IMG/VR virus record: IMGVR_UViG_3300027782_000034
Coordinates: 62,001-126,000 of that record
Reading direction: 5' to 3' (one strand)
Length of the DNA stretch: 64,000 bases
Source of the DNA: a virus
The translations under genes were made by a program, and so were the position numbers. Positions 2,637-41,133 of this stretch are shown here, piece by piece. Under the pieces are notes generated by a model, which was not told the DNA's origin, did not search any database, and worked only from the letters and a program-made list of their open reading frames with translations. The stretch's first letter is position 1; the number at the start of each line of letters is the position of its first letter.

Positions 2637-3064
2637 AAAATCATAACAGGCTTAGCCCTTGCTGCCATTTTAACAGCATGAGGCTCATTACCGCTATCTT
2701 CAGCTATCCAGCCCATCTTTTCAAACACATTAAATATAGAATCAGTAGCCCCATCAACTGTAGAAAGTAACAATGACTTTATAGTGGAATCAACCATGGG
2801 CTCAAGCATATTAGGAACACCAATGATGTCGATTGGAGCAATTACGGTATCGTAAAACTTATCAAGCCCTGCTAACACTAGCTGCTTTTTTTCTGCACGG
2901 CTGCCCTGCCCAGCTATTTCTACAAGTCGCACAAGGGTTGCTGCCCCGTTGTACAACAACCCAAGCACTTCTGAATAAGTTATTTTTCCGTCTGCTGTGT
3001 ATTCTTTGTAACGATCAATCATTGCAAGGATTGTTTGTTCCAATTGTTCTTGTACTGTAGCCAT
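2633..3064 (-). CDS. Hypothetical helical protein, 143 aa
   Basis: Not recognised. Predominantly helical with alternating charged and hydrophobic residues (VQEQLEQTILAMIDRYKEYT at residues 3-22) and a C-terminus containing KMAARAKPVMIF. There is no obvious signal peptide or enzymatic motif. AAGGAG precedes the ATG at 3064. A scaffold or small structural protein is possible. Confidence 0.66.
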   Translation of the reverse strand: MATVQEQLEQTILAMIDRYKEYTADGKITYSEVLGLLYNGAATLVRLVEIAGQGSRAEKKQLVLAGLDKFYDTVIAPIDIIGVPNMLEPMVDSTIKSLLLSTVDGATDSIFNVFEKMGWIAEDSGNEPHAVKMAARAKPVMIF

Positions 3065-3080
3065 AACTATCTCCTTATAC

Positions 3081-4196
3081 TTAGTTAAAAAGTCGAGGCA
3101 CTATACTATTAATTACACCTAGGGTAGCCCCAGTTTGCCCTAATGTAGCTTGCGTTCCGCCAGGCATTCCAGTTAGCAGTCCAAGCCCATAGCCAACTGT
3201 ACGTCCTGTTAAATAGCCTTGGAGCCCGCCACCTGCGGCCCCCATGGCCATACCAAACAACCCAACTTGGTGCGGAGTTACTATTCCGGGTCTTGAATTG
3301 GGATCTTGCATCTGCCCTGCCCCATATACTGCACCCATTGTCATAGCGGTGGTTTGAGGGCTTGCGTTAGTCCCCCAAAGCACTTGTCCAAGCTCATTTG
3401 TACGAATTAGAGGCATCTCTGCAAAAGATGGCCCGCCGATGCTTCCAAAAGCAGTATCAGCTTGCTTTGATATAAAGTTGGCCACTGCTTCTTTATACCT
3501 TACAGAGGTAGGTAACTTATCCTCAAACCCATCTTCGGGAAAACCTTTAAAAAGAGTTGGATCGTTAAATTCTCGACCTTCATGCAAATTTACTAACCCA
3601 GGCATTGAACCTACTAAAGCTCCGCCTACACCACCAAGCAACGCTAAACGCTTACGCAGTGTGCCTTTGGTCTGTGCCCACTCTGGCAATACCTTTTCTC
3701 CTAACCAACCTGCGCCATAGCCAAGACCTGTACCTATGAGCCCGCTGGCAACCATAGCTGCAATAGGTCGTCCACCATAGCCGGGAATGTCCTTGCTTGG
3801 AAAGAATTGAGCTAGTTCTCCTAATCGTCGTATAGTTGGAGAGTAAGCTACCTTTACCCACCAGTCATGTAAATCGTAAGGTGTCAAAGGTTCGGAATGC
3901 ACTCGGTCTGCACCAAGCTTCTCCGTTAAAAGCTGCAGTCCCCAATCAAACTCTTCTTGATTTAATACTGGTCTCACATACATGCCAGCCTTTTCAAGTG
4001 CTGGATTCCAGTAAATACCTATATCTGTTTTTGTGTATAAAGGAGAAACTATCCGTCTTATGATTTGAGCAGGGGCAGCACACTTCTCGGCCAAGTAATC
4101 AATAGTGCCGGGAAAATCAGCGTAGAGCCCTAAATCTAGAGTCTGTTCAACATTTAAATTAGGTAACTCGCTATCGTATGCCACATGCTTATCCAT
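3081..4196 (-). CDS. Glycine-rich membrane-associated virion-like protein
   Basis: Not recognised; 371 residues. The first 130 residues are soluble. Glycine/alanine-rich hydrophobic stretches follow around residues 150-170, 185-203 and 310-345, interrupted by a soluble insert containing ISKQADTAFGSIGGPSFAE. The SK-x-A motif and glycine-rich helices are shared with the proteins at 16659-30136. No Shine-Dalgarno sequence is visible before the ATG at 4196; instead a 10-bp hairpin ends only a few bases upstream, so translation may be controlled or the start may be misplaced. Confidence 0.66.
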   Translation of the reverse strand: MDKHVAYDSELPNLNVEQTLDLGLYADFPGTIDYLAEKCAAPAQIIRRIVSPLYTKTDIGIYWNPALEKAGMYVRPVLNQEEFDWGLQLLTEKLGADRVHSEPLTPYDLHDWWVKVAYSPTIRRLGELAQFFPSKDIPGYGGRPIAAMVASGLIGTGLGYGAGWLGEKVLPEWAQTKGTLRKRLALLGGVGGALVGSMPGLVNLHEGREFNDPTLFKGFPEDGFEDKLPTSVRYKEAVANFISKQADTAFGSIGGPSFAEMPLIRTNELGQVLWGTNASPQTTAMTMGAVYGAGQMQDPNSRPGIVTPHQVGLFGMAMGAAGGGLQGYLTGRTVGYGLGLLTGMPGGTQATLGQTGATLGVINSIVPRLFN

Positions 4197-35029: not shown

Positions 35030-35692
35030 TTACAGTCTCTTTAGCACTTCACGCACCAACGGATGGCGAAGCGACTCACCTTCAGTAAAAGTATGCGTGC
35101 ATGCGGTAGGCATAGGGGACAACCGCTGCATTACAGAGAGTATATCACAAGGTGTGTTGTCAGGGTTGTGTGGTCTAACATCTGTTTGCTCGGGATCGCA
35201 GGAGATGAGTACCTTAGAGTTGTTGCCCACCCTAGTCAAAAACATCTTAAGTTGGCTATAGGTTGCGTTTTGGGCCTCATCAAGGAACAAGACAGTGTCC
35301 TCGAAGGTATCGCCCCGCATATAGGCTAAGGGCTGAAACAATACAGCTTCCTCGGGCAGCTTATAGGTCAAGCGTTTGATCAATCTTCGGATAGGATCAA
35401 AGTAAGGAGATATCTTCTCCTCTACAGTGCCTGGTAAGAATCCTAGGGTATCACCCACCTCTACAATGGGCCTAACCACTAAGATTTGTTTCTTCTCACC
35501 AGCTAATAGCTCTTGTAGTGCACAAGCGAGGGCACAATGAGTTTTGCCTGTCCCAGCGGGTCCGGTCAAAAAGATAAGGTCATGAGTCGGGTAATCTTTA
35601 GCAACTTTGATCTGAGTAGGGTTAGCGGGCTTAAAGTGAAACACAGTCTCTTGCAATGATGTAGGTGTATTAGGTTTCTTCTTGCTGGCCAT
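35030..35692 (-). CDS. phoH: PhoH-like ATPase
   Basis: Seen: 220 residues if started at 35692 (MASKKKPNTP), eight bases after AAGGAG; the upstream in-frame TTG at 35710 is less likely. Walker A LTGPAGTGKTHCALACALQE (residues 42-61), Walker B TVLFLDEAQNATYSQLKMFL, then LISCDPEQTD. Known: this is the PhoH family, common in phages, often annotated phosphate-starvation inducible, with a helicase or RNA-related ATPase activity. The leader GACAAGGAGTC resembles a GGA-loop hairpin. Its role in the phage cycle is not defined. Confidence 0.88.
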   Translation of the reverse strand: MASKKKPNTPTSLQETVFHFKPANPTQIKVAKDYPTHDLIFLTGPAGTGKTHCALACALQELLAGEKKQILVVRPIVEVGDTLGFLPGTVEEKISPYFDPIRRLIKRLTYKLPEEAVLFQPLAYMRGDTFEDTVLFLDEAQNATYSQLKMFLTRVGNNSKVLISCDPEQTDVRPHNPDNTPCDILSVMQRLSPMPTACTHTFTEGESLRHPLVREVLKRL

Positions 35693-36149
35693 GGTAAGAC
35701 TCCTTGTCAAAGGTGAATTGTTTCCAAGGTCGGTATATTCGGTTTAAGTAATGAAAGCAGAGATAATCGTCACTAGATTGCGTACACACAGGGCGGTACA
35801 GCAACACTTCAGTCTTTGGCAATTGTATTAGTATGCAGTGCTCATGCCCCAGCATGCTGAACTTCTTAACCCAGTGACATAACGACTTTCTTTGCCCAGC
35901 TACTAGGTTCAAAGATAAGCAGTTAAATTCCGGATTTAAGTCACAGTGCCAACCATTACACACTAGGTCAGATAGCCCCTTAGAGCTCATGTCTTGAAGT
36001 GTAGCCTTCTGCCTACAGCGACTTATCTGCATTGCGACAGGCCATGCTGTCAGATGCGGTGCTGAAGCAATATCGGGGAGGGCTTTGGCTGTTTTCATAG
36101 TGCGTCTCATAAGATATGAGTCTACCCAAGACATGCCTAAATAGTACAC
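35670..36149 (-). CDS. Hypothetical protein, about 159 aa
   Basis: Not recognised. A cysteine/histidine-containing protein with SRCRQKATLQDMSSKGLSDL in the middle and a C-terminal YHGQQEET. No start has a clear ribosome binding site; 36149 (GTG) is the earliest, with ATG alternatives downstream. The end overlaps the phoH ribosome-binding region by 23 bases. Palindrome copy 7 lies inside and encodes DLNPEFN, in a different frame relative to the other coding copies. Possibly real, but weakly supported. Confidence 0.42.
   Translation of the reverse strand: MYYLGMSWVDSYLMRRTMKTAKALPDIASAPHLTAWPVAMQISRCRQKATLQDMSSKGLSDLVCNGWHCDLNPEFNCLSLNLVAGQRKSLCHWVKKFSMLGHEHCILIQLPKTEVLLYRPVCTQSSDDYLCFHYLNRIYRPWKQFTFDKESYHGQQEET
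35923..35940. repeat. Dispersed palindrome copy 7
   Basis: TTAAATTCCGGATTTAAG, coding for DLNPEFN. The reading frame is different from the NSG/KSG copies. Confidence 0.66.
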
Positions 36150-36185
36150 AGCAGCATTGCAAATATGATCAAAGTTATTGATATT

Positions 36186-36245
36186 ATCGCCAGCCTATAA
36201 TATAGACTGGCGATGCTTCCATATCTCAGCCTAGCAGAGATATGG
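36186..36245. other. Two adjacent perfect hairpins between the cytochrome gene and the 35670 gene
   Basis: ATCGCCAG (36186-36193) pairs with CTGGCGAT (36207-36214), 8 bp with a 13-base loop containing TATAAT. CCATATCTC (36219-36227) pairs with GAGATATGG (36237-36245), 9 bp with a 9-base loop. On the plus strand the second is followed by ATTTTTT. On the minus strand both lie downstream of the cytochrome stop, so they could form terminator or mRNA-protecting structures. Confidence 0.55.
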
Positions 36246-36247
36246 AG

Positions 36248-36940
36248 CTATTTTTTAGGTATCAGACTGACTGGGGTTAAGGAGAACACGGTATCACCAC
36301 CACGGATCCTAATCCCATAGCCATCTTGGCTACCAGTCTTACCATGACAGGACATACACGACTGCCCAGCCCCAGTGAAACCATTAGGGGCACAGTCAGC
36401 GTCAGTGAATACCACTTTAGATGTCCATTCATCTTCGCTCACCTTCTCACGCTTACGCACCTCAAAGGTTTGTTTTTTGTGCGTTAGCATGTCAATGAAG
36501 ATAGAACCTTTGGGCCAGCCCCACTTGTGCATGGGTAATGCCCTTCTTGCTCCTGCATCCACATTCTCAATGTAGAGGTTTACTTCCGCATCTTTGGGGA
36601 AGGATACTCCCACATAGGATACAAAGTCGGCTAGATCGTCTGTACCACCCGAGGTTGCCCAAGGAAACTTGCGGTTGGGGTTAGTTTCCCTTGCAATGCT
36701 GTCGTCTTGGCTGGTAGGCACCCATACATGGTGATCCAGTCCATTGGTGATAGTGAGTCGCTGGCTGTAGTTAGATCGGTTGTAGAAGTGCAGCCTATCG
36801 GGGAATGCTAATCCCTTGGGCCACATCTTATGGATCCTTTGTTGTTCCGCTAAAGGTAAGTATTGATCTTGGCCTGCATTGGGGAAAGAAACTGCTCCCT
36901 GTAGGGGCAGTGCAATTAAAACAAAAACGCAATTAAACAT
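36248..36940 (-). CDS. Secreted c-type cytochrome, cytochrome P460-like
   Basis: Seen: 230 residues. The start is placed at 36940 (MFNCVFVLIALPLQG), seven bases after AAGGA. A hydrophobic signal-peptide-like stretch covers residues 1-17, the rest is soluble, and the heme-binding CMSCH lies at about residues 195-199, with WGWPKGSIFIDMLTHKKQ upstream. Known: cytochrome P460 family proteins combine a WPxGT-like segment with a C-terminal CxxCH that attaches heme c. Inferred: exported to the periplasm, where host machinery would attach heme. A single heme site and no other cofactor are visible. It stands alone, between the 36970 gene and the paired hairpins. Confidence 0.75.
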   Translation of the reverse strand: MFNCVFVLIALPLQGAVSFPNAGQDQYLPLAEQQRIHKMWPKGLAFPDRLHFYNRSNYSQRLTITNGLDHHVWVPTSQDDSIARETNPNRKFPWATSGGTDDLADFVSYVGVSFPKDAEVNLYIENVDAGARRALPMHKWGWPKGSIFIDMLTHKKQTFEVRKREKVSEDEWTSKVVFTDADCAPNGFTGAGQSCMSCHGKTGSQDGYGIRIRGGDTVFSLTPVSLIPKK

Positions 36941-36969
36941 GAGAATTCCTTTCAAGAGAGTTTATAACA

Positions 36970-37320
36970 TCAACTAATGTCTTTTCTAAAGCCTTTGGTT
37001 ATTGGTTCCACCTCTCGATCTATCCATAGGACATGCACAGTAACACTACGAAGATTGGGCCATTCCAGCTTCTCGAAGACAAAGCCTTCCTTGCGAAGCT
37101 TTTCCATATCTTCCTCTATAGCTTCCATTGCTCCAACCGAGCATTCCTTGGAAGTGTTTCGTCTAGCGAATCGGGCAGCAAGCTCTTGGCTCGCAAATGT
37201 AGGGACAATTGCTTGATCTTCCTTCTGGTACACCAGCAGAGGACATACACGATTGTTGCGAAGTTCATTTAGAAATTCAGATTTGTTTAATTCACCACCA
37301 TCCGATAGTGCGAACCACAT
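36970..37320 (-). CDS. Hypothetical protein, 116 aa
   Basis: Not recognised. A mixed, charged sequence with NRVCPLLVYQKEDQAIVPTF near residue 23 and a helical charged middle (AMEAIEEDMEKLRKEGF). AAGGA precedes the ATG at 37320 by eight bases. Palindrome copy 8 ends 17 bases before the ATG, so this gene is a good candidate for regulation by whatever reads that element. Confidence 0.62.
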   Translation of the reverse strand: MWFALSDGGELNKSEFLNELRNNRVCPLLVYQKEDQAIVPTFASQELAARFARRNTSKECSVGAMEAIEEDMEKLRKEGFVFEKLEWPNLRSVTVHVLWIDREVEPITKGFRKDIS

Positions 37321-39837: not shown

Positions 39838-41133
39838 CTAATCATTCACACCGAGGAACTGAGCTAACCCACTGGTCAGCTGACTTTTGGAAATATTAGC
39901 TTCTTTTGCCAACTTTGCCAAGGTAGGCAAGGGTGGCTTAAGATCACTAATCATAGCATAAGCTTGTAACCCAGGCGACGAGCCAATGTACACACCCCTA
40001 TGCACCACACTAGTACCACCCTTCAATGTACGATTCATTTGCGTGAACCCTGCATCAAAGTACTCTAAACCGAGGCTGTCCAAGTGATGCTGATCACCTA
40101 CGAACAGACAAGCACCCTTGGTGCCTTGCTTTAAATCCACCTCAGCTAACACATTGTTAGTGAGCTGATCCCTAATCGCTGCAGAGATGTCTGCAGGGCT
40201 AGTGATGTTTTGTAAGCTGGCTGCACCCATCACACAGATACCATGATCCAGTAACTGAGCTAGCTCACTGCGATCAAAGGTGATTAAAGGGCTATGTACC
40301 GCAGCCAATTGATTAAACAAATGGAATAGCTGACTGACTGTGCTATTAGCCACATTGTACAGCTGTGCCATGCCTGGGCGATACAGTTGGTTAATGCGTG
40401 CATTGTCAATCAAGATTAATGGGCTTACTTTGAGCTCCATTAATCTTTGGAAGGATGTAACTGCATTGCGACATACTTGCTGACCTTCCGTAAAAGCCGG
40501 AATTGAAGCTATCACTCCAACTCGGGGTGGCTTGCCTTTTGACTCTAAGTACTCTCTAGCCACTTGTACCAGCTTACCGCTAGTACCAGAGCCAGTACCA
40601 CCACCTAGGCCAACACAGATTAAGCCATAGTCCACATCGTTGCCCCATGAACGTTGCAACAGATCCCAGATTTCCTCTTCGTGCCCATTTATGGCTTGTT
40701 CAGCAAACCTTGCATCTTTTGCAGCCCCACCCAATTGCAGCGTGTGTCGCTGAATCTCATCGGGTAAACCTTGGAAGTCGCTTTCTGCGGTATTGAATAA
40801 GGCCACTCGTCTATAGCCTAAGGACCAGAAGCTGGAGGCTAAGCGAGCACCGCCCTGCCCAGACCCCAGAAATGCCATGTTAAATGCGACATCATAAGGA
40901 AAGGCATCGTTTACCACTACTTGGGTTGCTGCTTGCTTATGGGCAGCAGGATTCAATGCTGCAGCGATGTTACCTATGTGCACAACACCGGGGGCTGCAA
41001 CTGGGGGTGCGATTGAAGGTGTGACAATAGGGGCAACCGGGGGAGCAACTGGAGGAGTGGCAATTGGCACACCCGATGCCTTGCTCAACGATGCCTTCAT
41101 TTGCTGTTCAATCGACCCATCTGAATTACTCAT
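39838..41133 (-). CDS. FtsZ/tubulin-family GTPase
   Basis: A filament-forming GTPase candidate. Seen: 431 residues. FNMAFLGSGQGGARLASSFW (near residue 79) and ALFNTAESDFQGL match the tubulin/FtsZ G1/NTxxxDL region. ICVGLGGGTGSGTSGKLVQV (near residue 172) contains the tubulin signature GGGTGSG, and FDRSELAQLLDHG near residue 285 resembles the T7 synergy loop with D/E. Known: PhuZ of jumbo phages centres DNA in the cell, and TubZ moves plasmids; this sequence has a longer proline/alanine-rich N-tail and resembles FtsZ/CetZ more. ACAAGGAT ribosome site before the ATG. Function in the phage is inferred. Confidence 0.82.
   Translation of the reverse strand: MSNSDGSIEQQMKASLSKASGVPIATPPVAPPVAPIVTPSIAPPVAAPGVVHIGNIAAALNPAAHKQAATQVVVNDAFPYDVAFNMAFLGSGQGGARLASSFWSLGYRRVALFNTAESDFQGLPDEIQRHTLQLGGAAKDARFAEQAINGHEEEIWDLLQRSWGNDVDYGLICVGLGGGTGSGTSGKLVQVAREYLESKGKPPRVGVIASIPAFTEGQQVCRNAVTSFQRLMELKVSPLILIDNARINQLYRPGMAQLYNVANSTVSQLFHLFNQLAAVHSPLITFDRSELAQLLDHGICVMGAASLQNITSPADISAAIRDQLTNNVLAEVDLKQGTKGACLFVGDQHHLDSLGLEYFDAGFTQMNRTLKGGTSVVHRGVYIGSSPGLQAYAMISDLKPPLPTLAKLAKEANISKSQLTSGLAQFLGVND

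Follow-up and report, generated by a model that had tools for sequence, protein, structure and literature searches.

A conserved, lineage-restricted gene of a large tailed phage encodes a probable exported heme-c protein with remote resemblance to cytochromes P460 and c'-beta

Does a tailed phage encode an exported heme-c protein and, if so, does that protein belong with the cytochromes P460? The question is raised by one gene in a 64,000-nucleotide stretch of viral DNA (the whole stretch analysed here, hereafter the window), which the initial annotation had described as a secreted, P460-like c-type cytochrome in a phage. The source record, an IMG/VR virus of 172,719 bases (172.7 kb), is a large tailed phage. 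Its supposed phage origin is borne out by portal, DNA polymerase, UvsX-like, RNA polymerase beta-like, and tubulin-like genes, and PhoH-like and class II ribonucleotide reductase genes are present as well. At 27% identity the portal protein matches a Vibrio phage D181 gene, and at 24% the portal of Salmonella phage Arash. Neither the window nor the other scanned stretches yielded a tRNA gene.

The RNA polymerase beta-like protein (L009:2-2457, minus strand) matches phage RNA polymerase beta-subunit families, and the phage may transcribe with a multisubunit RNA polymerase of its own. The tubulin/FtsZ-like GTPase lies at 39838-41133 of the window (minus strand; Pfam PF00091, E 7.6e-11); such GTPases also occur in spindle-building phages and in phages that make a nucleus-like shell. 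Glycan-type enzymes are scattered over window positions 9908-44328, namely a UDP-glucose dehydrogenase-like protein and TOD1/MUCI70-like, GT2, and GT4 glycosyltransferases; the same interval holds methyltransferases, a sulfotransferase-like protein, and a PhyH-like dioxygenase.

The candidate coding sequence (P0001; 230 amino acids) occupies 36248-36940 on the minus strand, stop codon included, with its ATG at 36940. The plus strand of this interval is rich in stops and the ORF is readable on the minus strand alone; the coordinates first assigned to the gene were correct, and its strand, then left unstated, is minus. A Shine-Dalgarno sequence, GAAAGGA (36947-36953, minus strand), stands 6 bases 5' of the ATG, and L016, a relative at 74% identity, has one too. 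Residues 1-16 (36893-36940, minus strand; MFNCVFVLIALPLQGA) form a hydrophobic leader that is probably a signal peptide. In its ATG form the leader contains no Lys or Arg until residue 35 and hence no basic n-region. An alternative TTG start 15 bases upstream would supply one basic residue, and in this form the leader ranks fifth in hydrophobicity among 234 ORFs; the TTG overlaps the Shine-Dalgarno region, and the corresponding start codon is missing in the 74% relative.

The two motifs originally reported are both present in the 230-residue ORF. WPKGS (residues 142-146, W142-S146; 36503-36517, minus strand) aligns with the [FW]PxG[ST] of P460/c'-beta proteins, and CMSCH (residues 195-199, C195-H199; 36344-36358, minus strand) is the predicted heme c attachment motif with its proximal His. 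Further downstream, DTVFS (residues 216-220; 36281-36295, minus strand) aligns with the post-heme D[YF]VF[ST] of the same proteins. The 31 residues that follow His199 include no Met and no His. CMSCH is the sole CxxCH among ORFs of at least 60 amino acids in the entire record, and its chance of arising in this protein from composition is 0.0014. Over the 207 ORFs of at least 100 amino acids, however, composition predicts 0.42 such motifs against the one observed; the motif alone is therefore weak evidence genome-wide and needs the support of conservation.

That support comes from relatives of the gene in four IMG/VR contigs, two at 97% identity and two at 74-75%. A first pattern scan of IMG/VR returned 11 stretches with 4 relatives, and a second returned 37 stretches with the same 4; the remaining 33 stretches, together with 2 from a third scan, were chance matches (1/35 in frame, and that one of low complexity). 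For the closest pair, the window and L002, dN is 0.013 and dS 0.343 (dN/dS 0.038), compared with a dN/dS of 0.042 for the portal gene pair; between the window and L016, pN is 0.158 and pS, which is saturated, 0.813. The protein is strongly constrained by purifying selection. Both Cys, His199, W142-S146 (WPKGS), Asp150, Glu160, Trp172, and DTVFS are invariant among the relatives. The gene likely encodes an exported heme-c protein, as had been suggested.

The gene sits in a conserved neighborhood with a variable site. Upstream lies a gene for 116 amino acids (36970-37320, minus strand) that is retained in relatives both with and without the heme gene, and two genes upstream is an acyl-carrier-protein-like gene (PF00550; 37367-37636, minus strand) that belongs to the conserved neighborhood; no partner synthase for the latter was seen nearby. 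A gene for 159 amino acids (35670-36149, minus strand) forms the other flank. L016 keeps the order of acyl-carrier-like, 116-residue, heme, and approximately 160-residue genes, and L021 shows the last three. The site between the 116- and 159-residue genes (window 35670-37320) is variable, and at loci L180, L181, and L182 relatives carry other genes there; at the L181 site there is an ORF at 2683-3426 that was judged by eye to be PhoH-like.

Beyond the four contigs, tblastn of the heme protein against 50,697 phage records and 72,556 plasmids found no relative, and a search of the phage records with a Thermus P460 fragment gave 0 matches. Searching by portal recovered 80 loci from the phage's wider clade, and 50 of these records were then searched with a three-row profile. 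The heme gene was found in none of these 50, of which 12 exceed 150 kb and the rest are shorter, some only a few kb; the set included no carrier as a positive control, and a separate protein query did detect two carriers. In three related phages (G417, G429, and G444), the 116-residue gene is present and is followed by other genes instead of the heme gene, with no CxxCH in same-strand ORFs of at least 70 amino acids at the site. Given the absence of carriers among the 50 related phages and the other genes on the site in three, the heme gene is cargo of one phage sublineage. The gene, its motif, its conservation, the selection acting on it, and its lineage-restricted cargo position are direct observations.

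The family to which the product belongs is less readily assigned. Searches of Pfam, PHROGs, NCBIfam, PADLOC, and PDB sequences gave no match to the full-length protein. Restricting the Pfam search to the last 130 or the last 100 residues lists a single family, cytochrome P460 (PF16694; E 0.14 and 0.31), with scores of 13 and 11.9 bits that fall below the curated cut-off of 27 bits. P460-family reference sets were assembled from 9 plasmid-gene proteins, a tenth having yielded no usable frame, and enlarged with genes from sampled genomes to 56. Aligned to the 56 proteins by hhalign, the phage alignment reached a probability of 88% at full length, spanning residues 119-204, and of 91% when restricted to its C-terminal part; the P460 alignment extends over 81 columns. 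As a single sequence, the phage protein ranked first among 207 ORFs against this set (74.6%, the next at 10.2%) and scored 46.1% against the 9-protein set (the next at 10.4%). Searches by hmmsearch with the P460 alignments were not significant (E 0.4 and 0.27).

Much of this signal resides in the heme motif. Without it, the hhalign probability falls to 5.7% (full length) and 12.8% (C-terminal part) with the register unchanged; most of the probability is thus contributed by the motif. When the heme segment was held fixed and the remainder shuffled, the real score was reached by 0/80 and 1/200 shuffles, and the part preceding the heme motif, taken alone, outscored 200 of 200 column shuffles in both probability and score. 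AlphaFold2, run twice on few-row (three-row) alignments, returned pLDDT values of 35.9 and 38.7. A single CxxCH near the C terminus, the predicted site of the one heme that marks the P460/c'-beta superfamily, is present in the sequence (C195-H199). The comparisons support a kinship between the phage protein and the P460/c'-beta family that appears real but remote and falls short of proof.

The predicted heme pocket narrows this assignment. A review (PMC11928373) describes superfamily members as having little in common beyond CxxCH; in P460s a lysine (Lys70, 78, or 106) is linked to the heme, c'-beta proteins have Phe or Met at this position, a few other residues, Glu among them, also being known, and active P460s carry a distal carboxylate. 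In the phage protein, the column of the crosslinking lysine (Lys106 of 6amg, Phe61 of 7ead) is occupied by Asp150 (36491-36493, minus strand); Lys106 (6amg, RDGT) and Phe61 (7ead) both lie five residues past the Gly of PxG[ST], and Asp150 was placed accordingly. Glu160 (36461-36463, minus strand) falls by hhalign in the distal-carboxylate column (Glu96 of NeP460, Gly82 of 7ead). MAFFT agrees with hhalign on WPKGS, CxxCH, and DTVFS and not on the middle region, and the placement of Glu160, which hhalign alone supports, is less certain than that of Asp150. The column of the distal capping residue (Phe/Arg) precedes the hhalign-aligned region. Since Asp150 replaces the defining lysine (Lys70/78/106) in all relatives, the heme protein does not count as a cytochrome P460 strictly defined, and Asp150 and Glu160 together favour a pocket of the cytochrome c'-beta kind over that of a true cytochrome P460. 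What stands of the original P460-like designation is a distant relation, indicated by the Pfam match at E 0.14, the hhalign probabilities of 88-91%, and the shuffles; membership among the P460s proper does not survive the Asp at the lysine column.

Searches for cellular relatives covered several samples. A close-relative scan of one genome per species in 84,980 species, which works by short exact peptides and reaches close relatives only, gave 26 pattern stretches and 0 relatives, and a P460-like pattern scan of bacterial genomes gave 20 stretches, none of them in frame (0/20). With the three-row profile, two of 12 genomes matched at E <=1: L061 is no relative, and L062 is a multiheme frame matched through its heme motif. 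The same profile matched 8/398 genomes from the phylum of G007 at E <=0.05, of which L067, again a multiheme frame, owes its match to the heme motif, whereas the frames at the other seven have no CxxCH; it gave 0 matches in 387 genomes from the phylum of G005 and two in 396 genomes from the phylum of G003, namely the RoxA-like L270 and a second locus, L271, whose matched frame carries no heme motif. The phyla profiled were, by record titles, samples of Gammaproteobacteria, Verrucomicrobia, and Acidobacteria; Planctomycetes, outside these samples, may hold related proteins. In L070, a mid-locus ORF of 314 amino acids contains YSQRLDLTNGGTIHVF, which at E 0.043 resembles YSQRLTITNGLDHHVW in the phage protein; this resemblance is probably due to chance, and there was no other lead for the N-terminal region.

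We propose, as a tentative reading to which we give a probability of roughly 0.42, that the gene encodes an exported monoheme protein of P460/c'-beta fold that would be matured by the host and handle peroxide or NO during infection. We infer export, heme attachment, fold, pocket, chemistry, and benefit as follows. A Gram-negative host would export the protein to its periplasm, where the host's own cytochrome c maturation (Ccm) system would attach the heme; the phage record has no second ORF with CxxCH. The C-terminal ~110 residues would adopt a divergent P460/cytochrome c'-beta fold with His199 as proximal ligand. Because no Met or His follows His199, the distal ligand would come from upstream, or the pocket would be open and five-coordinate as in the superfamily. 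A pocket lined by Asp150 and Glu160 would most likely bind or turn over small oxidants, either peroxide or NO, and could in this way shield the envelope and respiration of the infected cell, keeping it energised until lysis. As precedent, peroxidase-like activity of NeCP-beta and of NeP460 Lys70Ala, and proposed roles of cytochromes c' in NO defence, are noted in the review (PMC11928373). The more specific suggestion that the protein represents a viral P460/c'-beta branch with an acidic pocket (Asp150, Glu160), acting as a periplasmic peroxidase or NO-handling enzyme against oxidative or nitrosative stress, is doubtful at present.

Other readings share part of this evidence. The c-type motif and leader would suit a cytochrome that takes part in electron transfer or serves as an electron sink, drawing off periplasmic electrons in infection, and a phage-encoded SoxD with cytochrome c motifs is on record (PMC8190135); yet no Met or His among the 31 residues after CxxCH could act as a downstream sixth ligand, a point against class I electron carriers, and the P460-type signal suggests a ligand-binding pocket, so that we regard this role as unlikely. 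Class I cytochrome c itself was rejected for want of both a Pfam cytochrome c domain and a downstream Met ligand. An origin of the heme segment in the RoxA-like/diheme cytochrome c peroxidase family, rather than in P460, is quite unlikely. The Acidobacteria-group frame L270 (Pfam RoxA-like) did match residues 184-222 at E 9.9e-4 in 1/396 genomes, and in hhalign comparisons with seven proteins of this kind the probability reached 53-58% across 37-38 columns; however, about 0.4 matches at a per-genome E of 9.9e-4 are expected across 396 genomes, the match is restricted to the first of two heme segments, and the phage protein has one CxxCH in 230 amino acids compared with reference frames of 400-687 amino acids, partly cut. 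The P460 alignment is both longer (81 columns) and higher in probability.

Composition and conservation bear on two further alternatives. That the Cys pair is no heme site but a disulfide or metal ligand in a small secreted protein would fit the 0.42 CxxCH expected over 207 ORFs and the want of a family match at full length; this is quite improbable in view of the invariance of both Cys and the His across 74-97% identity, the P460-like positions of WPKGS and DTVFS, and the pre-heme similarity to P460 that exceeded 200/200 shuffles. The least probable alternative is a virion component, such as a decoration or tail protein that a heme or disulfide would stabilise. Although the portal gene lies ~7 kb away and is transcribed in the same direction, the hydrophobic leader is not in keeping with such a role, and a core virion part would be retained in related phages, so the gene's absence from all 50 related records searched and its replacement by other genes at the site in three relatives count against it.

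In summary, the phage gene is real, conserved, and lineage-restricted, and its product is a probable exported heme-c protein that appears remotely P460/c'-beta-like and, by the defining lysine, is not a P460. In the open paper library, no description of a P460 or c'-beta protein encoded by a phage was found, and the word "phage" is absent from the accessible text of the P460 review (PMC11928373). Phage genes for host electron-transfer pathways are already known; viral norB and nirK are reported (PMC8115048), and the reported SoxD means that phage-encoded cytochrome motifs as such are not new. If the exported, Ccm-dependent heme-c protein proves true, it would extend phage influence to envelope redox chemistry. 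The P460 review mentions a protein, apparently of c'-beta type, that carries glutamate where P460s have the lysine and still awaits investigation (PMC11928373); with Asp150 at the lysine column, the phage protein offers a natural test of the role of that position.

Among known systems, phage-encoded SoxD (PMC8190135) likewise brings a cytochrome c motif into a phage genome, but it is a recognisable subunit of a host Sox-pathway enzyme and belongs to a different family. Likeness to the RoxA-like/diheme cytochrome c peroxidases (PF21419; 4b2n) is local, confined to the first heme segment (37-38 columns); those proteins are much larger and have two hemes, and elsewhere the phage protein does not match them. 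With cytochrome P460 (N. europaea 2je2, Nitrosomonas sp. AL212 6amg), it shares the motif order and possibly a distal Glu (NeP460 Glu96), whereas Asp150 stands where P460s have the lysine for the heme cross-link, and P460-type hydroxylamine oxidation is therefore not expected. Relative to the cytochromes c'-beta (Thermus thermophilus 7ead, Methylococcus capsulatus 6hih, Nitrosomonas europaea 7s5o), the sequence score is not significant; the phage protein has ~85 extra N-terminal residues, a shorter middle, and a longer spacer between CxxCH and DxVF, with Asp for Phe/Met at the lysine position and a putative acidic residue in the distal column. Like them, it is a predicted monoheme c protein with the order [FW]PxG[ST] ... 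W ... CxxCH ... DxVF[ST] and no crosslinking lysine.
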